This document shows, piece after piece, positions 1 to 30,284 of a stretch of DNA of 37,499 nucleotides; position 1 is the first letter of the stretch, and each line of letters starts with the position of its first letter. The notes under the pieces are model-generated. The model was not told the origin of the DNA. It saw only the letters and a program-made list of their open reading frames with translations, and searched no databases. The stretch covers positions 1-37,499 of the forward strand of contig JAIYDW010000142.1 in NCBI GenBank assembly GCA_027487315.1, read 5' to 3'. The position numbers were made by a program, and so were the translations under genes. This DNA comes from Verrucomicrobiaceae bacterium (GTDB lineage Bacteria > Verrucomicrobiota > Verrucomicrobiia > Verrucomicrobiales > Verrucomicrobiaceae).

Positions 1-2
1 AA

Positions 3-125
3 ATTAACGTGCGTGGATTCGATAGCGACGACGCCGTGCTGACCCCGTTTTTGTCGGAACTATACAGCAAGCTACGCATTGATGGCTGGCAAGTAAGCCT
101 CGAAGCGAAGCCGGAGAACAGATGA
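3..125 (+). CDS. C-terminal fragment of a cassette-type gene (5' end outside window)
   Basis: An open frame of about 40 residues runs from the window edge to a TGA at 123-125. It ends in ...AKPENR. I do not recognise the family. Its base composition is balanced, unlike the G-rich phage genes that follow, and resembles the genes at 15436-17011. The last codons AAC AGA TGA belong to the repeat shared with the attC-like site at 17003-17034; the cassette gene ending at 17011 finishes with exactly the same three codons. By that analogy this is the end of an integron cassette gene whose stop is supplied by its attC site. The start codon and most of the protein are missing. Confidence 0.5.
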   Translation: MNVRGFDSDDAVLTPFLSELYSKLRIDGWQVSLEAKPENR

Positions 126-170
126 TTCTAACGAAGTAATTCGCAATAACTTGATGAATACGAATGATGT
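113..170 (+). repeat. attC-like site next to intI
   Basis: Bases 113-119 (GGAGAAC) resemble an R'' box. They are followed by a segment that matches 17003-17034 at 29 of 32 positions (117-148 here). A weak inverted repeat, ATTCG...CGAAT, is centred at about 152. Where the copy at 17055 has the G|TT crossover core, this copy has GTG (169-171), so the core is altered or has been recombined, and intI starts inside the site. It could be the last attC of a cassette array, an attI-like site, or a hybrid prophage junction. A covariance-model score is needed to separate these. Confidence 0.5.
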
Positions 171-1185
171 GATTGAAAAGCGGTTGGCGCGGTTGCGGGT
201 GGTGATGGCTACTTCGAAGGACGCGCGGAGTTTGAATACGGAGCGGAGTTATGTGAGCCATGTGAAGCAGTTTCTTTGGTTTTGTGCCTACTGTCCGCAG
301 GTGAAGTCGGCGGGGCCGGAGGAGTTGGCGCGGCTTTATGTTGAGTCGCGGGCGCGGGGGTGGTCTGAGTCTTCGATGCGGGTGTTTCGCAATGCGCTGG
401 TGTTTTATTATCGGTGGGTGGTGGAGATGCCGTTGGGGGATCTGGGGTCGTGGGCGATGGCGAAGCGGGCGAAGCGTTTGCCAGTGTGGTTGCCAGATCA
501 AGAGATGCGGGCGCTGCTGGGGTGTATGAAGGGGGTGACGAGGTTGATGGCGGAGGTGGATTATGGGTCGGGCTTGCGGAGTCACGAGCTGGCGAGTTTG
601 AGGTGGAAGGATTTGGATTTTGCGGAGAATCAGATTGTGGTGCGGCAGGGGAAGGGGGCGAAGGATCGGGTGACGTTTCTGCCGGCGGCGTGTGTTCCGG
701 CTTTGCTGGAGCATAAGGAGCGGATGCGGGCTTTGTGGGAGATGGATCGGCGGAATGGGCGGGCGGGGGTGGAGGTGCCTTCGGGGAAGTTTGATGGGAG
801 GGAGTGGCCTTGGTTCTGGGTGTGGGCGGCGGCGGGGGAGTCGGTGGATCCGAGGTCGGGGATCGTGCGGCGGCATCATGTGCATCGTTCGACGCTGGGG
901 AAGGCGATCGGGGAGGCGGTGAGGATCTGGGGTGGGGATAAGCGGGTGACGGTGCATGCGCTGCGGCATTCCTTTGCGACGGAGATGCTGATGGATGGGG
1001 TGCCGATCCATGAGCTGAAGGAGCTGATGGGGCATGCGCACATTAGCACGACGGAGATTTATGCGCATTGTCTGCCGAGGCTGACGGCGCGGCGGGGGAG
1101 TCCGATGGATCGGGCGCCGGTGGTGGGCAATGTGGTGCGGTTTCCGGGTGCGGTGGTGATGGGTGATGAGAGGAGGGTGGGGTGA
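154..1185 (+). CDS. intI: Integron integrase IntI (tyrosine recombinase with the IntI-specific extra domain)
   Basis: This enzyme would recombine attC x attI or attC x attC sites to insert and excise gene cassettes. It has 343 residues from ATG 154; a TTG lies at 151. The catalytic set is complete: R142 (YGSGLRSHE), K170 (GKGAKDR), H268 and R271 (HALRHSF), H294 (GHAHIST) and Y303 (TEIYAH). Between the first arginine and HxxR lies the additional domain that separates IntI from XerC/D and phage integrases, at residues about 190-245 with WPWFWV and DPRSGIVRRHH, as in class 1 IntI. The C-terminal RRGSPMD resembles the IntI ending. Its G-rich codon use matches the phage genes, and its stop overlaps the primase start (GTGA at 1182), so it belongs to the phage replication operon. 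An attC-like site lies directly upstream and three cassettes lie 14 kb downstream. Confidence 0.93.
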   Translation: MNTNDVIEKRLARLRVVMATSKDARSLNTERSYVSHVKQFLWFCAYCPQVKSAGPEELARLYVESRARGWSESSMRVFRNALVFYYRWVVEMPLGDLGSWAMAKRAKRLPVWLPDQEMRALLGCMKGVTRLMAEVDYGSGLRSHELASLRWKDLDFAENQIVVRQGKGAKDRVTFLPAACVPALLEHKERMRALWEMDRRNGRAGVEVPSGKFDGREWPWFWVWAAAGESVDPRSGIVRRHHVHRSTLGKAIGEAVRIWGGDKRVTVHALRHSFATEMLMDGVPIHELKELMGHAHISTTEIYAHCLPRLTARRGSPMDRAPVVGNVVRFPGAVVMGDERRVG

Positions 1186-2426
1186 GTATTGGTGCGAGTG
1201 TCGATCTGGCGGATCTGCGGGAGCGGGTGCGTGATGCGACGGATATTGTGCAGTTGGTGGGGCGTGTGGTGAAGCTGCGGAAGGCTGGGGCAAATGTGTG
1301 GAAGGGGTGCTGTCCGTTTCATGCGGAGAAGTCGCCTTCTTTTGTGGTGAATGGTGAGGGTAGGCATGCGGGGAAATATCACTGCTTCGGCTGCGGGGCG
1401 GGTGGGGATGTGTTTGATTTTTTGATTCAGACGCAGGGGATGGGGCATAAGGAGGCGGTGGAGTGGCTGGCGCGGGAGGCGGGGATTTCGGTGGGGGAGA
1501 TGGGGTTTGAAGCGGCGAAAGGGCGGGTGCTGCGGCGTGTGGAAAGGCGGCTTGAGAATGAGGATGTGGTGGAAAAGCCGTCTCTGCCGTCACTGTTTCA
1601 GGCGACGCGGGAGGATTGTGAGGTGATCGCTAAGGGGCGGGGGCTGGATTTGGAGTCGGTGTGGATTGCGGCGCGAGTGCATAAGCGGGTGGCGGTGGTG
1701 CAGTCGTGGCCGATGCGGGAGAAGGGTGGGAGGTGGTGGCGGCGAGATGGGTGGGAGCAGCACCGATGCTGGACGGTGATCGATGAGACGCGGGCGGTGG
1801 CGGAGTTTCGGCGGCTCGATAATGGGCTGCATACTCGGGCGGGTGGTGAGGCGGGGCCGAAGGTGTGGAGCACGGCGGGGAAGAATTGGCCGATCGGGGC
1901 GGGGTCGATCGGTGATAGGCGGCGGGTGCTGCTGGTGGAGGGCGGGCCGGACATGCTGGCGGGGTATCACTTTTTGCGGATGTGGCATACTCAGAAGCGG
2001 CCGCTTTTGCATGAGGTGGCGGTGGTGTGCATGCTGGGGGCGAGTAATCGAATCCGTGAGGATGCGCTGGGTTTTTTCAAGGGTTGTCGGGTGAGGATCA
2101 TGGTGGATGCTGATACGCCGAAGGATGATGAGGTAAAGGCGAAGCGTAAGCTGACGGGGATGGAGGCTGCGATGCGGTGGAGTGATCAGTTGACTGAGGT
2201 GGGAGCTGCGGTGGAGTGTTTTTATGTGGGGGATGTGTTCAAGGCGGAGGATGTGGCGGCGTGGCACGAGGGGGAGAAGCTGGCGGGGGAGATCGAGGTG
2301 GTGGTGCCTGGGTTTGTGCGGGCGGATGGGGCGAAGGTGAAGGATTTGAATGATTTGGCGCGGTGCTCTGAGGAGGTGCTGGGGTGTGATGATGTGCGGC
2401 AGGCGTTCACGGTTTGGGATTTTTGA
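1182..2426 (+). CDS. Phage primase, CHC2 zinc finger plus Toprim
   Basis: This is a DnaG-type primase that would make RNA primers for phage replication (414 residues, GTG start). The N-terminal zinc finger has C44-x2-H47 and C68-x2-C71, within CPFHAEKSPSF and YHCFGCGAGGD. The Toprim-like fold is at about residues 245-330, with LLVEGGPD and RIMVDAD as the acidic metal-binding motifs. It lacks the C-terminal DnaB-interacting region, as expected for a phage primase that works with its own helicase. The GTG start overlaps the intI stop by four bases, which implies translational coupling. The next gene, a P-loop protein, starts six bases after its stop codon. Confidence 0.9.
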   Translation: MSIGASVDLADLRERVRDATDIVQLVGRVVKLRKAGANVWKGCCPFHAEKSPSFVVNGEGRHAGKYHCFGCGAGGDVFDFLIQTQGMGHKEAVEWLAREAGISVGEMGFEAAKGRVLRRVERRLENEDVVEKPSLPSLFQATREDCEVIAKGRGLDLESVWIAARVHKRVAVVQSWPMREKGGRWWRRDGWEQHRCWTVIDETRAVAEFRRLDNGLHTRAGGEAGPKVWSTAGKNWPIGAGSIGDRRRVLLVEGGPDMLAGYHFLRMWHTQKRPLLHEVAVVCMLGASNRIREDALGFFKGCRVRIMVDADTPKDDEVKAKRKLTGMEAAMRWSDQLTEVGAAVECFYVGDVFKAEDVAAWHEGEKLAGEIEVVVPGFVRADGAKVKDLNDLARCSEEVLGCDDVRQAFTVWDF

Positions 2427-2431
2427 TTTCT

Positions 2432-4063
2432 ATGGCTAAAAAACAGGTTTCCAAGAGGAGAGGTAAGGTCGCTAAAAAGGGCGATGGGGCAGCGGCGTTT
2501 GAGTCGGGGGAGGCGGCGGCGCCGAAGGTTTTCGATGAGGAGGCGGTGGCGCAGGATCTGGGGTGCTGGTGGCTGAGTGGGAAAGATGCGTTTTTGATGA
2601 GGGATGATGAGGGGCGGTGGCACCAGTGGGGGCAGCAGGCGCTGATCGATGCGATGCGGGGTTTGACGGGGCGGATGATTGCGATTAAGGCGCGTGAGAA
2701 TGAGATGCTGAGTGAGGCGAAGCGGGTGCTGCTGTGGGTGCGGAAAAATCGGGCGGTGGATGCGGTGATGACGGCGCTTCCTGGGTATCGTCAGGGGATT
2801 TATGATCTGCCTGGTGGCGAGCGGGTGCTGGTGAAGAAGTCGCCGGTGGTGATCGAGCCGGTGCCGGGTGAGTTTCCGACGATTAGGAAGATCGTGGAGG
2901 GCATGCTAGGGAAGGATGAGGGTGATGCGGAGAGCATCGATCAGACGGGGTGGTTTTGGTCGCTGTGTAAGTGCTGGTATCGGGCCTTTGTGACGGGTTC
3001 GCCGGAGGGGTGGAAGCAGAGTCATGCGGTGGTTTTTACGGGCACGCACGGGTGCGGGAAGAATCTGGTGCAGGAGCTGATTCTGACGCCGCTGGTGGGT
3101 GGTCGCTTTGCGGATCCGTTGAAGTTTTTGATGGATGAGGATCAGTTCAATGGGGATATGATGGTGGAGCACTGGATGCTTTCGGAGATTCCTAGCTCAC
3201 AGCGGACGGAGGATCGGGTGAAGTTTGCGGAACGGATCAAGCAGATCGTTGCTAATAGGACGATGCGGGCGCGGTTGATGCGGTCGGAGCCGAGCACGAT
3301 CCAGCCGTTTGTTAGGCTTTCGATTTCGGTGAATGATGATGCGGATACTATGAGATCGCTGCCGGTGGTGAGTGATGGGTATGGGGATAAGATTATTATT
3401 TTTCACTGCCGTAAGAAGCGGTTGCCGATTCTGGGTGATAGTGATTTGAGGTTGGCGAGTGAGCGGGAGGCCGATGAGGATGCGTGGGGTGAGGATGGCG
3501 ATGATTCGTTTGCGAAGGAGTGCGAAATTCGGCGGGTGATTGCGCAGGAGATCCCGGCGTTTTGCCATTGGTTGAAGCATGAGTGGAGAATTCCGGAGGC
3601 GCTGGTGAAGCCGGAGCATGAGCATGATAATCCGAGGCGGTTCGGGTTTAGATCGTTTCACCATCCAGTGATCAAGCAGCAGTTGTTTGATGAGACGAGC
3701 GCGGCGCAGCTTTTGCGTTTGATCGATATGGCGGAGTTTCAGGGTAAGGGGGTAAACGATGTGAGGAAGATGAAGCTGTGGGAGCTGCCTGAGCCGTTTA
3801 ATCATAAGCCTCTGGATATGCAGGCGAGGTGGTGGGGAACAGCGGAGTATTTGCAGCAGCTTTTGACAGGTGAGACGGACCTGGAATGCAACGTGGTTTC
3901 AATGGCAAAGAAGCTGTTCGACAAGAACAAGAGGGAGTCGATGCTGACAAAGCTGGCTTCGGACGAGCATTTGGGCGGGATCGAGGGGCGCGTTTACAAG
4001 GACGAGAAGGATACGAGGACGCGGTTGTGGCGTGGTTGGTGGATTAGCAGGCCGCTGGAGTAG
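2432..4063 (+). CDS. Phage primase-helicase-like P-loop ATPase (DUF5906 type)
   Basis: The protein has 543 residues. The start is ATG 2432, behind the T-rich leader tttttgatttct; a TTG at 2414 is in frame but less likely. A Walker A motif GTHGCGKN lies at about residues 204-211, and an acidic stretch near residues 220-245 (MDEDQFNGDMM...LSEIP) fits the Walker B and sensor region of superfamily 3-like helicases fused to or paired with phage primases. The N-terminus is Lys/Arg-rich. It would unwind DNA at the phage origin together with the CHC2 primase encoded just upstream. The closing residues WWISRPLE are followed by a long non-coding region that may contain the origin. The family name is from memory of DUF5906 proteins; the P-loop itself is direct evidence. 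Confidence 0.8.
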   Translation: MAKKQVSKRRGKVAKKGDGAAAFESGEAAAPKVFDEEAVAQDLGCWWLSGKDAFLMRDDEGRWHQWGQQALIDAMRGLTGRMIAIKARENEMLSEAKRVLLWVRKNRAVDAVMTALPGYRQGIYDLPGGERVLVKKSPVVIEPVPGEFPTIRKIVEGMLGKDEGDAESIDQTGWFWSLCKCWYRAFVTGSPEGWKQSHAVVFTGTHGCGKNLVQELILTPLVGGRFADPLKFLMDEDQFNGDMMVEHWMLSEIPSSQRTEDRVKFAERIKQIVANRTMRARLMRSEPSTIQPFVRLSISVNDDADTMRSLPVVSDGYGDKIIIFHCRKKRLPILGDSDLRLASEREADEDAWGEDGDDSFAKECEIRRVIAQEIPAFCHWLKHEWRIPEALVKPEHEHDNPRRFGFRSFHHPVIKQQLFDETSAAQLLRLIDMAEFQGKGVNDVRKMKLWELPEPFNHKPLDMQARWWGTAEYLQQLLTGETDLECNVVSMAKKLFDKNKRESMLTKLASDEHLGGIEGRVYKDEKDTRTRLWRGWWISRPLE

Positions 4064-7292: not shown

Positions 7293-8870
7293 ATGGCGAA
7301 GAAGATTGCAAAGAAACGAGTGACGGGAGTGCGGTCGGTGGCGGCGGCGGAGGTGGTGAATTCGTTGCCGGCAACGACGGGTGGAGTGCGGGTTGCGCCT
7401 TCGCTTTCTTACCAGCGGAGCAAGACGATTGAGCGGATGGCGGTGAGCCGAGATCGGGTGGCGGTTTCGCGGTATTTGCAGGAGGCGCTGCCGTTTGCTT
7501 ACTATGTGACGAATACGCTGCCGGAGGAGGCGGTGGGGCGGGGGATTGGGATTAAGTCGGTGAGCACGAATCCGGAGTTTAAGAAGGCGGCGACGGCTTA
7601 CTTTGCGAAGTGGGCGAATAGTCCGGCGGTGGATCTGCGGAAGAAGTTGGATTTTTATGCGCTTCAGCCTTTGCTGCTTTCGACGATTTTGGGGGATGGG
7701 GAGTTTTTCACGCAGAAGGTGCAGGCGGAGGGTGATGTGCCGAGGTCTTGGCAGTTGAGCGATACGAGCCGGAGGCGGTTGCAGCTTCAGTTGTTTACTC
7801 GGGATCAGTTGGTGAGCGGGGATGGGAAGGCGGGGCCGGGGGAGAAGTGGAATGATGGGCTGCTGCTGAATGCGTTTGATCAGACGGTTGTGTGCCGGGT
7901 GCAGTTGGAGCCGAGGGATGGAAAGGCGCAGTTTTCGGACATTCCGACGGCGCTGATGTTTCACGGGATGAAGCTGACGCGGATCAATCAGGTTCACGGG
8001 CAGCCGTGGCTTTTGGATGGGAAGGATCTGCTGGATACGATCGATATTCAGGCGATTCGGAAGCATGCGGCGAAGGTGAAGGCGGCGTTTCTGGGGGCGA
8101 CGGTGACGGATGATGGGCAGGTGCCGGAGGCTTTGCGGGTGGTGCAAAGTAAAGGTGTGAGTGGGACGCCTGCGGTGGATAATGGGCAGCGGTTTGCTGA
8201 GATTTTTGGTGGGGCGGTGATGATTCCGCTGATGCGGGGGCAGTCGGTAAATTGGTTTAATGCGCCGGAGGCGATGAACTATGGGCAACTGATCGAGGAG
8301 TTGCTTTCGCCTTTTGTGTATCGGTTTGGGTATCCGCCGGAGTATATTTTTAAGCTGGGGGCGTTGGGTGGGACGGCTAACAGGACGGTGTTGGCTAAGG
8401 TTTCGCGGGCGCATCAAAGGCTGCGGAGTTTGCTGCATCCGTTTTTGCAGTGGGTTTGGGAGTGGGTGATTTCGGATGCGGTGCTCAATGGGGAGCTGTC
8501 GCAGTTTGCGGCGGTGGCGGATTGGAATGAGGTGGATTTTGTGGCGGATCCGGATCCTTCGGTGGATTCGGGGCGGGATGAGAAGGCGGAGATGGCGAGG
8601 CTGGAGAATAATGCTTCGACGATGGAGGAATACACGGAGAAGCGGACGGGCGGGAGTGGGTTGGCGGTGAGGCAGGAGCGGATTACGGAAAAGCTGGAGG
8701 ATATGCAGTATGCGATTGCGAAGGCGAAGGAGTTGGGGTTGCCTCCGAGTTTGGCGATGCTGCGGGCGATTCCGCCGAATGAGATGATGGCGATGGCGGG
8801 GCTTTCGAATTCGCTAGGGCTGGATCCGGAGGAGTTGGCGCGGCAGATTGCGGCGGTGGGGGCGGATTGA
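7293..8870 (+). CDS. Portal protein, lambda gpB family
   Basis: This forms the dodecameric DNA-entry vertex (525 residues from ATG 7293). Sequence features match lambda-type portals: an Arg/Lys-rich N-terminus, then ERMAVSRDRVAVSRYLQEALPFAYYVTN, then VGRGIGIKS, and a DGEFF motif in the wing region. The conserved C-terminal region contains the segment YRFGYPPEY followed by a helical tail. Length is close to gpB (533). It is followed after 15 bases by the head protease gene, as in lambda (B-C). Confidence 0.88.
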   Translation: MAKKIAKKRVTGVRSVAAAEVVNSLPATTGGVRVAPSLSYQRSKTIERMAVSRDRVAVSRYLQEALPFAYYVTNTLPEEAVGRGIGIKSVSTNPEFKKAATAYFAKWANSPAVDLRKKLDFYALQPLLLSTILGDGEFFTQKVQAEGDVPRSWQLSDTSRRRLQLQLFTRDQLVSGDGKAGPGEKWNDGLLLNAFDQTVVCRVQLEPRDGKAQFSDIPTALMFHGMKLTRINQVHGQPWLLDGKDLLDTIDIQAIRKHAAKVKAAFLGATVTDDGQVPEALRVVQSKGVSGTPAVDNGQRFAEIFGGAVMIPLMRGQSVNWFNAPEAMNYGQLIEELLSPFVYRFGYPPEYIFKLGALGGTANRTVLAKVSRAHQRLRSLLHPFLQWVWEWVISDAVLNGELSQFAAVADWNEVDFVADPDPSVDSGRDEKAEMARLENNASTMEEYTEKRTGGSGLAVRQERITEKLEDMQYAIAKAKELGLPPSLAMLRAIPPNEMMAMAGLSNSLGLDPEELARQIAAVGAD

Positions 8871-15287: not shown

Positions 15288-15439
15288 CGCGGGAGCGGAG
15301 TCGGAGGCTTTTGGATCAGATTTCGGTGGGGGAGCGGTTTATGCTGATGTTTGGGCGTGGGGAGTTGAAGCGGGATCCTTTGCGGGTGGTGTGGAAAGGG
15401 AACGCCTCGGATCAGGCGACGGCGAGGAAACCGCTATGA
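15284..15439 (+). CDS. Small phage tail ORF, interrupted by the cassette array
   Basis: 51 residues as it stands, overlapping the previous stop (ATG 15284). The first 38 residues (MTRERSRRLLDQ...RVVWK) have phage-type G-rich codons. The last dozen or so (NASDQATARKPL) are read from cassette-type sequence. If everything between 15399 and 17056 is removed, the frame continues as KGWGEF-stop (43 residues), and that stop falls inside the TTGACA motif at 17068, as at other phage junctions. The present C-terminus is therefore probably not native. The function is unknown; it lies between the chaperones and the tape measure. Confidence 0.6.
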   Translation: MTRERSRRLLDQISVGERFMLMFGRGELKRDPLRVVWKGNASDQATARKPL

Positions 15440-15490
15440 AAAACGCGACAGATAAGCTTCGAGCCGTTGCCTACATACGATTTGTTCGGC
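15397..15490 (+). repeat. Candidate attC-like site at the left edge of the cassette array
   Basis: AAC at 15401-15403 and GTTCGGC at 15484-15490 flank a 10-bp stem, AGGCGACGGC (15414-15423) with GCCGTTGCCT (15463-15472, one G-U pair). The arms are 10 and 11 bases from AAC and GTT. No cassette gene precedes it, so it may be the remnant of a deleted cassette. The start of the ORF at 15436 lies inside it. Confidence 0.4.
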
Positions 15491-15765
15491 GGCTTTGCTG
15501 TGGGTGGAAAGGGCATAACTGGAAAGTCGGCTACTACGCCGACGAATCGAGTTACGCGACATGTGATCGCTGCGGAGAGCGCCGCGAGCCAGTGCAGCGC
15601 ACTGATGGATGCACGCCGGTATGGGACGCGCCGTCTAATGCCTACAAGTGCAAACACTCTGACAACATGGCAGCGAGAGGATGGGGTGGACTATGTCCCG
15701 CGCATCGCAGTCTGCCGAACGATCAAGGCCATGCGGCGGCGAGCAGTGGCCTGAATCCAACTTGA
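15436..15765 (+). CDS. Cassette 1: small cysteine-rich zinc-ribbon-like protein (DUF1660-like N-terminus)
   Basis: 109 residues. The N-terminal half has CCGWKGHNWKVGYY followed by CDRCGERRE (C21, C22, H27, C43, C46), the spacing of small prophage zinc-ribbon proteins of the DUF1660 type (C..GH.W...C.RCG). C59, C72 and C87 follow. ATG 15436 overlaps the previous stop (ATGA). If the cassette begins after G15484, the start codon lies outside the cassette body in the upstream attC-like site, so the protein would depend on the insertion context. Its end (GLNPT) overlaps the attC palindrome. Function unknown; metal binding is inferred from the cysteines. Confidence 0.6.
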   Translation: MKNATDKLRAVAYIRFVRRLCCGWKGHNWKVGYYADESSYATCDRCGERREPVQRTDGCTPVWDAPSNAYKCKHSDNMAARGWGGLCPAHRSLPNDQGHAAASSGLNPT

Positions 15766-15801
15766 GAGCTTATCGCCGTCGCATGCGCTGCCTTGTTCGA
15801 G
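15714..15801 (+). repeat. attC-like site between cassettes 1 and 2
   Basis: R''-like GCCGAAC (15714-15720) and R'-like GTTCGAG (15795-15801) flank a long imperfect stem: 15727-15742 pairs with 15773-15788, 13 of 16 positions Watson-Crick plus one G-U, loop about 30 nt. Spacers of six bases on both sides match the unpaired central spacers of attC sites. The stop codon of the cassette 1 gene is in the loop. Confidence 0.65.
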
Positions 15802-15834
15802 GGCGGCCGACTCTAACCTAAAACCGTTGAAATC

Positions 15835-16305
15835 ATGATACCGCTGAAAAAAGAAGATGCCGGAGAATGGACATACACGCTCCCCGGAATGGACCCAATC
15901 GCCGCCACGGTGTTCTGGGATGACCGTGGATTCACCGCTGTCCGCGTTGACGATGTGCGGCAACTCCCGGTCCACATGATCGATGAGGCCGTGTGGGAGC
16001 GCGTCGAAATGATGACGTGCGAATGGTGCGGAAAAGAGTTCCCCGCCGATGCTCGCGCATGCGTGGAGGCTGGAATCGACGCGTATCACCCGCCGGAAGA
16101 TGGAGAGGAATGGAAAGGCGAGGAACCCACTCAACTTCCACCAGGCCACTTTGCCGGAACCGATCGTGAGCGGCTGAAAACAGAAATGGGACTTGATGAC
16201 GCACAGCTCGATGAACTGCTCAGCACGGGAAAGGTGGAAGGGCTGGGCGCTATTGTCTGCCTCGAATGCCAAGATGCCGGACTGGAGGCCGCCGAAGCGC
16301 AATGA
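15835..16305 (+). CDS. Cassette 2: hypothetical acidic protein with CxxC pairs
   Basis: 156 residues. Two Cys pairs, CEWCGKEF (about residue 62) and CLECQDAG (about residue 142), could hold one zinc ion across a helical acidic middle rich in Glu and Asp. The N-terminus (WTYTLPGMDPIAATVFWDDRGFTAVRVDDVRQLPV) looks beta-rich. No family is recognised. The gene starts 40 bases after the cassette boundary and stops a few bases before the next R''-like box, so it fills its cassette exactly. No promoter is seen in the 40-base leader, so it probably relies on phage late transcription. Confidence 0.75.
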   Translation: MIPLKKEDAGEWTYTLPGMDPIAATVFWDDRGFTAVRVDDVRQLPVHMIDEAVWERVEMMTCEWCGKEFPADARACVEAGIDAYHPPEDGEEWKGEEPTQLPPGHFAGTDRERLKTEMGLDDAQLDELLSTGKVEGLGAIVCLECQDAGLEAAEAQ

Positions 16306-16307
16306 GT

Positions 16308-16403
16308 CCCTCGAACGTGGAGGCCAGACACGGCGAAGAGAAGGCGCAGTAATCACGACAGACACTCTATGAGCCGTTGTTCTGCGCCGTCGTGTTAGCT
16401 GGC
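16308..16403 (+). repeat. attC-like site between cassettes 2 and 3
   Basis: CCCTCGAAC (16308-16316) is the R''-like end of cassette 2, and GTTAGCTGGC (16394-16403) contains the core and the start of cassette 3. Between them GGCGCAG (16343-16349) pairs with CTGCGCC (16382-16388). A second possible pairing is TAATCACGAC (16350-16359) with GTCGTGTTA (16389-16397), with one bulged T. The fold is less symmetric than in the other sites. Confidence 0.6.
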
Positions 16404-16439
16404 TTTTCTCGACCTCCAAAAATAATTTTATATTCGCTC

Positions 16440-16468
16440 TTTACAAACCCAACAGTTGGGTTTATAGA
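16440..16468 (+). promoter_or_regulatory. Cassette-borne promoter with a palindromic spacer
   Basis: TTTACA (16440-16445), a spacer of exactly 17 bases, then TATAGA (16463-16468): a good sigma-70 promoter. The spacer AACCCAACAGTTGGGTT (16446-16462) is a perfect palindrome with one central base and looks like an operator covering the whole spacer. AT-rich DNA lies upstream. The first gene of cassette 3 starts about 28 bases downstream of the likely transcription start. Confidence 0.7.
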
Positions 16469-16502
16469 TACGGGGTCAGCACGAAACTCAACTCAACCAA
16501 AT

Positions 16503-16853
16503 ATGAAAACACACTACCGAGTCCAAGAACTTAAAAGCAACACAAACTCAACGGAATTTCACTGGAGCGAAACCGTAAATTCCGAATTTGGCAATCACTT
16601 CTCGCCAGCGCCTGAAGGGTCCAAGTATCCCTTTGCCCGCACTCGCTCACCTGTGAATGAGGACGGCGGATATGAAACTGAAGACATGGCAAAAGCCAGT
16701 GAGCCGAGAATGCCGTGGAGGTCGGCGGAAAATGACGACCTTGCGGGCAAGCCCGAGATCCAAGGGAAGCGTAAAAAAATCCAAGTCACTCCTCTGCATG
16801 TGGGAGTCGAAAAAGGCCGCGTGTATCGCATCATCAAAATTGACGCCGTATGA
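16503..16853 (+). CDS. Cassette 3, first gene: hypothetical protein
   Basis: 116 residues from ATG 16503; a longer reading from 16377 would start before the cassette boundary and is rejected. The leader is A-rich. The N-terminus is polar (MKTHYRVQELKSNTNSTEFHW), the middle is Glu/Asp-rich, and the end (VGVEKGRVYRIIKIDAV) looks like a beta hairpin. No family is recognised. It has its own promoter at 16440-16468. Its stop overlaps the next start (ATGA at 16850), so the two genes are translationally coupled and probably work together. Confidence 0.65.
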   Translation: MKTHYRVQELKSNTNSTEFHWSETVNSEFGNHFSPAPEGSKYPFARTRSPVNEDGGYETEDMAKASEPRMPWRSAENDDLAGKPEIQGKRKKIQVTPLHVGVEKGRVYRIIKIDAV

Positions 16854-17011
16854 AATGCCCTCACTGCGGAAAGAAGATCAACGTTGGCTCTCTCATGGGG
16901 AGCCAACGATCCAAAGCAAAAAGCGCCGCTGCCAAAGTGAACGGCGCGAAGGGCGGGCGGCCTCGGAAAACTCCGAAGGCCGTGACGCCTTCTGAGCCAG
17001 CTAACAGATGA
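16850..17011 (+). CDS. Cassette 3, second gene: 53-residue zinc-ribbon-like basic protein
   Basis: It begins MKCPHCGKKINVGSLMG, a single CxxC knuckle, followed by a basic tail with KSAAAKVNGAKGGRPRK, a pattern common in short DNA-associated proteins. One Cys pair could bind zinc as a dimer. The ATG overlaps the stop of the first cassette 3 gene. The last codons AAC AGA TGA are part of the attC-like repeat, exactly as in the gene fragment at 3-125. Confidence 0.6.
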   Translation: MKCPHCGKKINVGSLMGSQRSKAKSAAAKVNGAKGGRPRKTPKAVTPSEPANR

Positions 17012-17061
17012 TTCTAACGAAACGATTCGCAATATTGTTGATATTTGCGAAGGAGTTGGGG
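16996..17061 (+). repeat. attC-like site closing the cassette array
   Basis: GCCAGCTAAC (16996-17005) mirrors the start of cassette 3 over ten bases. A hairpin follows: TTCGCAATAT (17026-17035) pairs with ATATTTGCGAA (17041-17051), ten pairs with one bulged base and a 5-nt loop; bulged bases of this kind are a hallmark of attC stems. GTTGGGG (17055-17061) is the core. Bases 17003-17034 match 117-148 at 29 of 32 positions. Confidence 0.68.
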
Positions 17062-26847: not shown

Positions 26848-27436
26848 GAGTCTGCTGCCTCCTGCGAAGCCTAAGTTGTCTGAAAGGGATTTGGATGTGC
26901 TGCTGAAGAAGCACAAGGTTGATCGGGCGCGATGGCCGTTTTTGGTGTTTGGGATTCGGGGTTACTATTCGAGGACGATGGGGCCGACTCGGGGTAATGA
27001 TCGGGGGATTTATGATGATTTGATTGGCCTGGTGACGCCGAATGTGACGGCGTTTTTCAATGGCAATACGGATCCGAGTGCGGTGAGGCGTGGGCGTGGG
27101 ACCGGTGCGGGGAAGGGGATGGCGAGTTTGAAGCCGGGTTTTTGGCCGGTGTATCGCTTTGATCTGCATCGTGGGCAGTATTTGGCGCTGTGCCAGCGGG
27201 CGGGGGCGGTAACGGTGGTGCGTGATGGGTCGCCGGATTACGAGGACACGGGTTGGTTTGGCATTAACATTCATCGCGGCGGGGTGCGTGGGACGAGCAG
27301 TGAGGGCTGCCAAACGGTGCCGCAGCAGGGCGGTCAGTGGGATGCGTTTATTTCGCTGGCGGTCGCTGAGGCTAAGCGGATGTATGGGGCGAAGTGGCGG
27401 ACGACGACGGTGCCGTTTCTTTTGATGGAAGGTTAA
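26846..27436 (+). CDS. Probable phage lysin (peptidoglycan hydrolase of the NIHRG...SSEGCQ type)
   Basis: 196 residues, no signal peptide. The segment GINIHRGG, then TSSEGCQTVPQQGGQWDAF, has the His and Ser-x-Gly-Cys-Gln arrangement seen in a group of phage and L,D-transpeptidase-like cell-wall enzymes. It is placed after the membrane proteins, at the end of the late operon, as lysins are. The bond cut is not predicted. The stop codon TAA overlaps the stop of the integrase on the other strand within TTAA (27433-27436), so the two genes converge with no terminator between them. Confidence 0.65.
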   Translation: MSLLPPAKPKLSERDLDVLLKKHKVDRARWPFLVFGIRGYYSRTMGPTRGNDRGIYDDLIGLVTPNVTAFFNGNTDPSAVRRGRGTGAGKGMASLKPGFWPVYRFDLHRGQYLALCQRAGAVTVVRDGSPDYEDTGWFGINIHRGGVRGTSSEGCQTVPQQGGQWDAFISLAVAEAKRMYGAKWRTTTVPFLLMEG

Positions 27437-28533
27437 CGGCGGCGGCGTGGGAGGCGTGTGCGGCGGGGCTGGGGGGCTTTGATGGGTGGCGGTGTGGGGC
27501 GGTGCCAGGCGGCGTTTATTTCGTTGTCCTGGGGGATGAGGTGGCCGTAGGTAGCTTCGGCGGTTTCGATTTCGTCGCCTAGCCATTTGGCGACTTTGTA
27601 GATAGAGACGCCTTTGGAGACGAGGAGGCTGGCGAAGGTGCGGCGGAGATCGTGGAAGGTGAAGCGGGAGAGGTGGAGTTTTGCGAGGTGGCTTTTGAAG
27701 CGTTTGCGGAAGTCGGCGCGGTAAACGGAGCGGCCGTGTTTTTGTTCGGGGCGAAACATGAAGGGGGCGGGGAGGCTGTAGGTGTCGAGGAGGAAGGTGC
27801 GGAATTCGTCAGTGAGGGGAACGGTGCGGCGTTCGCGATCCTTCGGGGTGAAGGTGGGGGTGGAGTCGATGTGGATGAGGCTGAGGGTCAGATCAAACCA
27901 TGCGGGGATGGCTTCGATGATTTCGAGTTTGCGCATGCCAGCGTGGAGGGCGCAGTAAAGGACGAATTTTAATGAGGGGTCGGTGCAGGTGTCGAGCACG
28001 GCGCGGGCTTCATTCGGGAGGAGGAAGAGGCGGCGCGGCTGGGGGCGGATGCGTGGGGGGGTGATGTCGGCGGTGGGGTCGGTGCCGAGTTTGTTTTGTT
28101 CGATGAGCCAGGCGATCCACCATCGGACTTGTCGAAGGTAGGCGATGGCGGTTTGAGGTTTGGCTTTCAGGTGATGCGCAAACCAGACGGCGCAGGCGCC
28201 GGGGGTGATGTGGCGCGGGGTTTGGGCTGCGGTGGCTGCGGCGAAGCTGCGGAGGACGTAGCGGCGTGAGTCGAGGGTGGCGCGGGTCAAGCCTTCAATG
28301 CGTTTGGCGGTAATGTAGCTTTCGATTTCTGCGGTGCATTCGGCGGCGGCGGCGCGATGCTGGGGGCCGTCGGTGCGTTTGATGGCTTCGGCTTTGGCGA
28401 TGGCTTCGGTGAAGTCGGTGGTGTGGAGGGATTGGCGGAGCTGGGGGGAGCCGGGGAAGGGTGTCCAGCGGAGCCACCATGTCTTTTTTCCTGGGTGCTG
28501 ATAGAGGCCGGGGTATGTGGGTCTGCTGGGCAA
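27433..28533 (-). CDS. int: Phage tyrosine integrase beside tRNA-Pro
   Basis: 366 residues, TTG start at 28533. It has an arm-binding-like N-terminus (YPGLYQHPGKKTWWLRW), a SAM-like core-binding domain, and a catalytic domain with R (HAGMRKLE), K (TPKDRERRTVPL), HxxR (FHDLRRTFAS) and Y (AEATYGHL). The usual third-position His before the tyrosine motif is replaced by Asp (WLGDEIETAE). It lacks the IntI extra domain, so it is a different enzyme from the one at 154-1185. It would integrate the phage at tRNA-Pro, whose 3' end is 88 bases upstream. The Arg/Pro-rich C-terminus is unusual but basic. Confidence 0.9.
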   Translation of the reverse strand: MPSRPTYPGLYQHPGKKTWWLRWTPFPGSPQLRQSLHTTDFTEAIAKAEAIKRTDGPQHRAAAAECTAEIESYITAKRIEGLTRATLDSRRYVLRSFAAATAAQTPRHITPGACAVWFAHHLKAKPQTAIAYLRQVRWWIAWLIEQNKLGTDPTADITPPRIRPQPRRLFLLPNEARAVLDTCTDPSLKFVLYCALHAGMRKLEIIEAIPAWFDLTLSLIHIDSTPTFTPKDRERRTVPLTDEFRTFLLDTYSLPAPFMFRPEQKHGRSVYRADFRKRFKSHLAKLHLSRFTFHDLRRTFASLLVSKGVSIYKVAKWLGDEIETAEATYGHLIPQDNEINAAWHRPTPPPIKAPQPRRTRLPRRRR

Positions 28534-28569: not shown

Positions 28570-28621
28570 AGTTAAACGGGAGGCGCGGGAGGCCGGTGCG
28601 GTGGGCTTTGCCCTTGTGATA

Positions 28622-28698
<77 letters not shown>

Positions 28699-29177: not shown

Positions 29178-30284
29178 ATGAGCGAGACGATACTGCAATT
29201 TGGAGCGGGGAATTTTTTGCGGGGGTTTGTGGATTTGTTTGTGGCGGAGTTGAATCGTGGGGTTGGGACTGGGGTGGGGAAGGTGGTGGTGGTGCAGTCG
29301 ATGGGGCGGGGGCAGGCGGAGTTGTTGAATGCGTGCGGGGGGGAGTATCATGTGGCGATCCAGGGGGTGGTGGAGGGTCGGGTGGTGGATGAGGTGGTGA
29401 AGGTGGATTCGATTTCGCGGGCGCTGCATGCGGGGTCGCAGTGGAGCGAGGTGTTGAAGGTTGGGCGGAGTGAGGCGTTGCGGTGGATTGTGTCCAACAC
29501 AACAGAGGCGGGGTTTGTGTTGGATGATCGGGATGGGGCGAGGCCGGTGGAAGGTGAGGCGCCGCATTCGTTTCCGGCGAAGTTGCTGGAGGTCTTGTTG
29601 GTGCGTTATGAGGCGGGGTTGCCTGGGGTGGGGGTGGTGCCGTGTGAGTTGATCGAGCGGAATGGGGAGCGGTTGCGGGAGTTGGTGGTGGAGCAGGCGG
29701 GGAGATGGGGGGTGGAGGCGAGGGTGCTGGAGTGGTTGAGGGAGTCGGTGTGTTGGGTGGAGAGTTTGGTGGATCGGATTGTGCCCGGGCCGCCGATGGC
29801 GCATGCGATGAAGGGGAGTGATCCGTTGCTTTTGAGTGCGGAGCCGTTTGCGTTTTGGGGGGTGAAGGGAGTGGGGGCGTTTTGGGAGCATCCGGCGGTG
29901 CAGTTGACGGGGGATTTGACGCCTTACTATTTGCGGAAGGTGAGGATTTTGAATGGGGCGCATTCGGCGCTGGTGGCTTATGCGCTGCCGCGTGGATTCA
30001 GGACGGTGCGGGAGTGTGTGGAGGATGCGGAGGTGGGGGTGTGGTTGAGGCGGGTGTTGGAGGAGGAGATTGTGCCGGTGATCGCGGATCGGGTGGAGGA
30101 TGCGGAGGGGTTTGTGCGGGCGACGTTGGATCGGTTTCGGAATCCGTTTTTTGAGCATCGGTTGGAGAGCATTGCGCTGAATCACGAGGCGAAGGTGAAG
30201 ACGCGGTTGGTGCCGACGGTGAGGGAGTATCGGGAGCGGTTTGGGAAGTCGGCGCCGTTGTTGAGTGCGATGCTTGGGGTTTGA
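29178..30284 (+). CDS. Mannitol dehydrogenase-superfamily oxidoreductase, tagaturonate reductase (UxaB)-like
   Basis: 368 residues. The N-terminal Rossmann start ILQFGAGNFLRGFVDLFV is characteristic of tagaturonate/fructuronate reductases. The family segments SNTTEAGF, VVPCELIERNGERL, VDRIVPG and LRKVRILNGAHSALV (with the catalytic Lys-x-Arg-Asn region) are all present. UxaB would reduce D-tagaturonate to D-altronate with NADH in galacturonate breakdown. The protein is shorter than E. coli UxaB (483), as are several bacterial relatives, so substrate specificity is not certain. The gene begins 67 bases after tRNA-Asn. Confidence 0.8.
   Translation: MSETILQFGAGNFLRGFVDLFVAELNRGVGTGVGKVVVVQSMGRGQAELLNACGGEYHVAIQGVVEGRVVDEVVKVDSISRALHAGSQWSEVLKVGRSEALRWIVSNTTEAGFVLDDRDGARPVEGEAPHSFPAKLLEVLLVRYEAGLPGVGVVPCELIERNGERLRELVVEQAGRWGVEARVLEWLRESVCWVESLVDRIVPGPPMAHAMKGSDPLLLSAEPFAFWGVKGVGAFWEHPAVQLTGDLTPYYLRKVRILNGAHSALVAYALPRGFRTVRECVEDAEVGVWLRRVLEEEIVPVIADRVEDAEGFVRATLDRFRNPFFEHRLESIALNHEAKVKTRLVPTVREYRERFGKSAPLLSAMLGV

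Follow-up and report, generated by a model that had tools for sequence, protein, structure and literature searches.

When an integron integrase (IntI) is encoded in a phage genome, the question arises whether the phage merely carries an integron stolen from a bacterium or collects genes with an integron of its own. This question is raised by the first genes of the window, the whole stretch of DNA analysed here, which is one entire contig (C206, 37,499 bp) of a 5.9 Mb Verrucomicrobiaceae draft genome in 256 contigs and which starts inside a gene cassette. Judging from sequence comparisons, the locus very probably represents a phage-resident integron, with its own IntI and with single cassettes inserted at the G^TT of two phage attI copies.

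The integrase gene and its prophage

The initial annotation had proposed a full-length intI at 154–1185 (plus strand) within a prophage, and both parts of this proposal hold. The open reading frame starts with ATG and encodes 343 amino acids, whose best NCBIfam match is the integron integrase family TIGR02249 (227.7 bits; next non-IntI family, 127). Alignment with IntI1 revealed the catalytic residues R, K, H, R, H and Y together with the IntI-specific insert and its RRHH motif, both of which had been read correctly from the sequence. The IntI-type recombinase of an integron, extra domain included, is present, although its score lies below the curated TIGR02249 cut-off of 265. In a phylogenetic tree, the protein falls inside IntI with the Xer proteins set apart (support 100/97), which rules out a Xer recombinase or an ordinary phage integrase. 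We also considered it as the phage integrase acting at a tRNA site; it has the IntI insert, and that role belongs to an ordinary prophage tyrosine integrase at 27433–28533 (minus strand; PF00589, with TIGR02249 absent from its matches) beside tRNA-Pro. The host genome has two IntIs of its own (contigs C139 and C7), to which the window IntI is only about 40–45% identical. A C-terminal IntI remnant (58% identical), which the tree places as the sister of the window IntI, was found in the early region of another phage (L018 2039–2422, IMGVR_UViG_3300048584_000025). Moreover, a contig of a same-genus genome opens with the 3′ part of a closely related intI (L023 1–141, or G002:C209:1–144; 88% DNA identity), after which comes an oppositely oriented gene for a different recombinase-like protein, and a close IntI may thus occur in another element.

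The TGA of intI overlaps the GTG start of a CHC2-type zinc-finger primase gene at 1182–2426 (plus strand; PF01807, 5e-28), as the initial annotation had stated, and a gene for a DUF5906 replication helicase-like protein (PF19263) follows at 2432–4063 on the same strand. Further downstream, family matches identify a GpA-type terminase, a lambda-type portal, a ClpP-like protease and a P22-type coat protein, and then tail genes. The codon usage of intI is phage-like, as had also been noted: its distance to the phage core genes is 0.19, within the 0.11–0.30 of the core genes themselves, whereas the cassette ORFs lie at 0.52–0.58.

The prophage is real. Its left part lies on contig C244, where 47 bp (C244:8602–8648, attL) are identical to the attR core in tRNA-Pro at 28621–28667 of the window (minus strand), and a relative phage carries the att core joined as attP. 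The gap between C244 and C206 corresponds to the cassette array 5′ of intI. The relative phage, MAG contig JARXAL010000003.1 (35,186 bp, circularly permuted; C252 of genome G001 and record L019, hereafter C252), encodes an IntI that is 93% identical to that of the window, and intI as well as the genes from about 4.4 kb onward share 80–93% DNA identity between the two phages. In between, the primase/helicase pair of C252 shows no detectable DNA similarity to that of the window and comes from different families (PF08273 primase), and the boundary of this swap is exactly the end of intI (window 1182–4063 versus C252 11029–14054). Since intI is kept while its neighbour has been exchanged, the overlap of intI and primase gene is not an accident of assembly; the same junction recurs in this independent assembly despite the non-homologous primase, and the closest relatives of the IntI are all viral, so that the gene is resident, as the initial annotation had supposed. 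Besides C252, the phage early region has another relative (71%) in the same genome as the window (G000:C116:33469–34852), near a tyrosine recombinase gene at 29682, which probably belongs to another prophage.

attI sites and cassettes

The initial annotation had placed cassettes elsewhere in the phage, where we find three attC sites at 15396–16400. Beyond this, cassettes also lie directly upstream of intI, at the contig end, next to an attI at 117–148. The attI block, AACAGATGATTCTAACGAA-NNN-ATTCGCAATA, is located 37 nt upstream of intI (attI-1, 117–148) and again before a tape-measure-like gene (attI-2, 17003–17034), both in minus orientation; it is common to these sites and both sites of C252, and each of the two phages has exactly two copies. 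The crossover reads AA^CAGATGATTCTAACGAA... on the plus strand (AA^C) and G^TT on the minus strand. In 68 family genomes, host chromosome included, the motif was found nowhere else with up to two mismatches; at three, the maximum allowed, there were two further matches. The exact motif had no match in IMG/VR, where relatives carry a diverged motif that was found only via the IntI profile search.

Comparison of the two phages provides an empty and a filled allele of attI-2. In C252 the site is uninterrupted, with GGAAGGAG (in longer context GTGTGGAAGGAG) running directly into AACAGATGATT. In the window it holds 1.6 kb: GGAAAGGG is followed by AACGCCTC at the left junction, and the insert ends in CCAGCT before AACAGATGATT (in longer context, GTGTGGAAAGGG followed by AACGCCTCGG at the left and GAGCCAGCT followed by AACAGATGATT at the right). 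On the minus strand the empty site reads CATCTG^TT, the attI crossover, and the filled site ends ...GAGGCG^TTCCC; the junction is exactly G^TT, seen on this strand only. The alternative that the shared 32-bp block is the last attC of each array was rejected, as the empty C252 allele shows an attI. At the sequence level, an attI adjoining intI with cassette entry at G^TT is thus indicated by the empty and filled attI-2, by attI-1 beside intI and by comparable motifs in related viruses.

The left end of the insert matches a repeat of about 90 nt with well over 100 copies in 28 of the 57 genomes searched, including the chromosomal arrays of the host. These chromosomal repeats are attC sites, with GGCGAAC...GTTCGCC arms, bulges on one arm and a folding z of −2.6. 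A covariance model built from the chromosomal copies only detected exactly three window attCs, each on the minus strand and with the polarity that attI predicts: attC-C at 15396–15490 (E 8e-18), which belongs to the family of the host chromosomal attCs, attC-B at 15713–15801 (E 2.5e-4) and attC-A at 16309–16400 (E 1.2e-7). Plus-strand polarity, which ORF direction had first suggested, was rejected, since the minus strand scored 72 versus 11 and 24 versus 15 bits and only this strand has the G^TT. Folding alone was significant for the chromosomal consensus and attC-B and non-significant for attC-C and attC-A, and generic repeat finding was uninformative for attCs because of the G-rich codon usage.

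When a cassette is free and circular, the bases that immediately follow the G must complement the R″ box of its own attC. This R″/R′ rule holds for all three cassettes and defines their junctions: cassette A (16317–17004; TTAGCTGGC/GCCAGCTAAC, a 10-nt partner), cassette B (15721–16316; TTCGAGGG/CCCTCGAAC) and cassette C (15404–15720; TTCGGC/GCCGAAC). It also holds along the C252 array 5′ of intI, where one attC is supported by the model and the other cassettes rest on the rule. Moreover, R″ matches of at least 7 nt were present in 12 of 14 independent viral arrays, compared to 6–16% of other GTT sites (p about 1e-8), and matches at the control GTT positions were far shorter. Cassettes with an attC bearing R″/R′ and L″/L′ arms are therefore documented by the three model hits together with this rule.

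Cassette A carries plus-strand ORFs at 16503–16853 and 16850–17011, the latter zinc-ribbon-like and ending NR* in attI-2. Cassette B has an ORF with CxxC motifs at 15835–16305 (plus strand), whose protein was without relatives among family genomes, phage records and IMG/VR, and cassette C has one at 15436–15765 (plus strand) with 52% identical homologues in two viral contigs. The array showed no match to PLSDB plasmids. An origin from the host cassette pool is suggested for cassette C only, the attC of which is closest in sequence to the host type. Beside attI-1, positions 1–118 (plus strand) hold the 3′ end of a cassette ORF (...KPENR*), with frame 3 open to the TGA at 123–125; this first array continues past the contig end toward C244, and its left edge is C244:1–85, directly after a ParB-like gene.

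Cassette gene direction and viral relatives

The polarity of attI and attC is minus, and the independently supported cassette ORFs read plus, i.e. toward attI and co-directional with the phage operon. Methyltransferase genes that precede intI in related phages also read plus. Furthermore, the four ORFs that enter the four attI copies of the window and C252 all end in ...NR* at AAC AGA TGA within attI. ORF length by itself (17 plus, 5 minus, 9 undecided) does not settle the gene strand of some short cassettes; our call relies on the family-supported ORFs, the homologues of cassette C and the four NR*-ending ORFs. In contrast, ORFs in the chromosomal arrays have the standard direction in all 27 decided intervals. 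From sequence, the cassettes that the phage retains thus appear to have their gene reversed with respect to attC and aligned with the phage operon. Most definitions of an integron treat the promoter Pc as usual and not as strictly required. Near attI no sigma-70 promoter was recognised, and the supported ORFs point toward attI instead of away from it; gene direction and Pc are the respect in which the phage integron is a variant. In the usual account, the orientation of insertion places cassette genes under the integron promoter (PMC3607928).

Searching IMG/VR with an IntI profile yielded at least 490 confirmed relatives; records in this database may be incomplete or wrongly classified, and an estimated completeness of 90% was reached by none of the 15 that were queried. 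In a tree of the best 80 relatives together with chromosomal IntIs, mostly of Verrucomicrobiota, the window IntI belongs to a viral-only clade of 25 members (SH-aLRT 96), and the two host IntIs fall outside. About 20 viral clade members have an attI-like AACAG.TGATTA 33–65 nt before intI, with variable 5′ neighbour sequence, and the attC model matches many members; almost all of these matches flank intI and are on the minus strand. Two of the records, L123 and L124, are 98.7–100% identical on both sides of different methyltransferase cassettes, and the change begins exactly at AAC; the L124 contig has a diverged second attI copy, and another record (L128) has a second attI that is exact over 24 nt with an attC beside it. 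In several members the intI stop and the start of the next gene share a 4-nt overlap, and the neighbours of viral intI include genes for portal, head protease, major head protein, DnaB, primase and terminase-like proteins. Additional arrays are present at other positions of these viral contigs. In related phages we also observed attCs on the other strand far from intI (L201 57–1218, also G097; L203 903–1362, also G099; G102:C1:21944), possibly further attI platforms.

Taken together, these data likely reflect a widespread phage lineage in which a single IntI, produced along with the replication genes, acts on two attI platforms in different operons and reversed cassette genes are expressed by phage transcription. 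The phage would produce its own IntI from the early, or replication, operon, and synthesis along with replication proteins could time IntI activity to the stage at which part of the phage DNA is single-stranded and attC bottom strands can fold. Cassettes would enter either attI, just upstream of intI or between late genes before the tape-measure gene; incoming attCs would keep their standard polarity relative to attI while the cassette genes are carried reversed, and phage promoters, instead of an integron Pc, would read them. That IntI is active is suggested by the comparison of alleles and relatives, and we infer that the phage IntI, rather than a host IntI, carried out the insertions.

Alternative explanations and known integrons

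Several other explanations have to be weighed against a phage-resident integron. The insertions might be the work of the host IntIs on C139 and C7, with the phage IntI inert or otherwise employed. Two such enzymes exist and could in principle act on phage attCs, one of which is close to the host attC family, but an attI is usually recognised specifically by its cognate IntI, the viral members examined have an attI-like motif right beside intI, and the phage IntI retains its full catalytic set, which makes this explanation unlikely. Very unlikely is a host chromosomal integron captured by chance and now a passenger, as in Vibrio and Shewanella prophages. Such captures are documented (Qi et al. 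2023, PMC9892861) and the same attC type occurs in the host family. However, a captured integron should have an IntI and attI nearly identical to those of the host, whereas the phage IntI, only distantly similar to the host enzymes, has phage-like codon usage and belongs to the viral-only clade, its attI is duplicated and absent from the rest of the host genome, and the layout recurs in many phage contigs.

The location of intI in the replication operon, the presence of a separate ordinary integrase and the methyltransferase genes upstream of intI in several phages would also fit an IntI recruited for phage genome resolution or methyltransferase gene switching, with the cassette-like DNA as a by-product. 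This is highly improbable, as both sites hold cassettes of unrelated content with individual attCs. An assembly or binning artefact that joins an integron to a phage might come to mind for one contig of a 256-contig draft that begins within a cassette; it is extremely improbable given an independent assembly with the same order at 92–93% identity, the repeated layout in IMG/VR phages and the agreement of attL and attR.

The proposed phage-resident integron differs in several respects from the closest known systems. The initial annotation regarded the arrangement as undescribed, which does not apply to integrons in phage genomes as such: a screen of 10,705 phage genomes turned up three integrons, a solitary intI (all four in temperate phages) and 17 attC clusters (Qi et al. 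2023, PMC9892861). Its authors describe the integrase-bearing cases as acquisitions by phages of host or class 1 integrons (PMC9892861). The integrons of Vibrio Va_90-11-286_p16, Shewanella M16-3 and P1 L-II likewise have IntI, attI and attC cassettes within a phage genome; M16-3, a cryptic prophage whose IntI is 95% identical to that of S. oneidensis, also has two attI-headed arrays, and methyltransferase cassettes were noted in phage CALINs (PMC9892861). Unlike these host or class 1 fragments, the window phage has an IntI of a separate phage lineage in an early operon, a phage-specific attI and reversed ORFs. With the sedentary chromosomal integrons of Verrucomicrobiaceae, including those on C72 and C139 of its own genome, it shares the attC family and the G^TT chemistry, whereas their IntIs are about 40% identical, their ORFs have the canonical direction and they lack the phage attI motif. 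As in Treponema-type atypical integrons, intI and cassette genes point the same way; in Treponema, however, intI is transcribed toward attI and the cassettes are canonical (PMC3607928), whereas in the window intI lies on the canonical side of attI and the cassette genes are reversed relative to attC. Virus Rctr41k (KX853513) similarly encodes an IntI in an early operon overlapping a neighbour gene (L050 4680–5678, annotated as xerD; 383 bits, above the family cut-off), which belongs to another IntI lineage; this genome has a weak attC match at 8415.

Phage-captured integrons were already known; the open-access papers searched contained no description of a phage IntI lineage that is resident and combines two attI platforms with reversed cassette genes. 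Overall, some phages appear, on present sequence comparisons, to collect genes by an integron rather than merely carry a stolen bacterial one. Phages would then be integron users as well as carriers and could rapidly swap accessory genes such as methyltransferases, both from one phage genome to another and with the cassette pools of hosts, which would provide a route for cassette movement between bacteria. Where integrons evolved would also become a question, and it could be tested whether the strict orientation of cassette genes is set by IntI chemistry or by the promoter that reads them.
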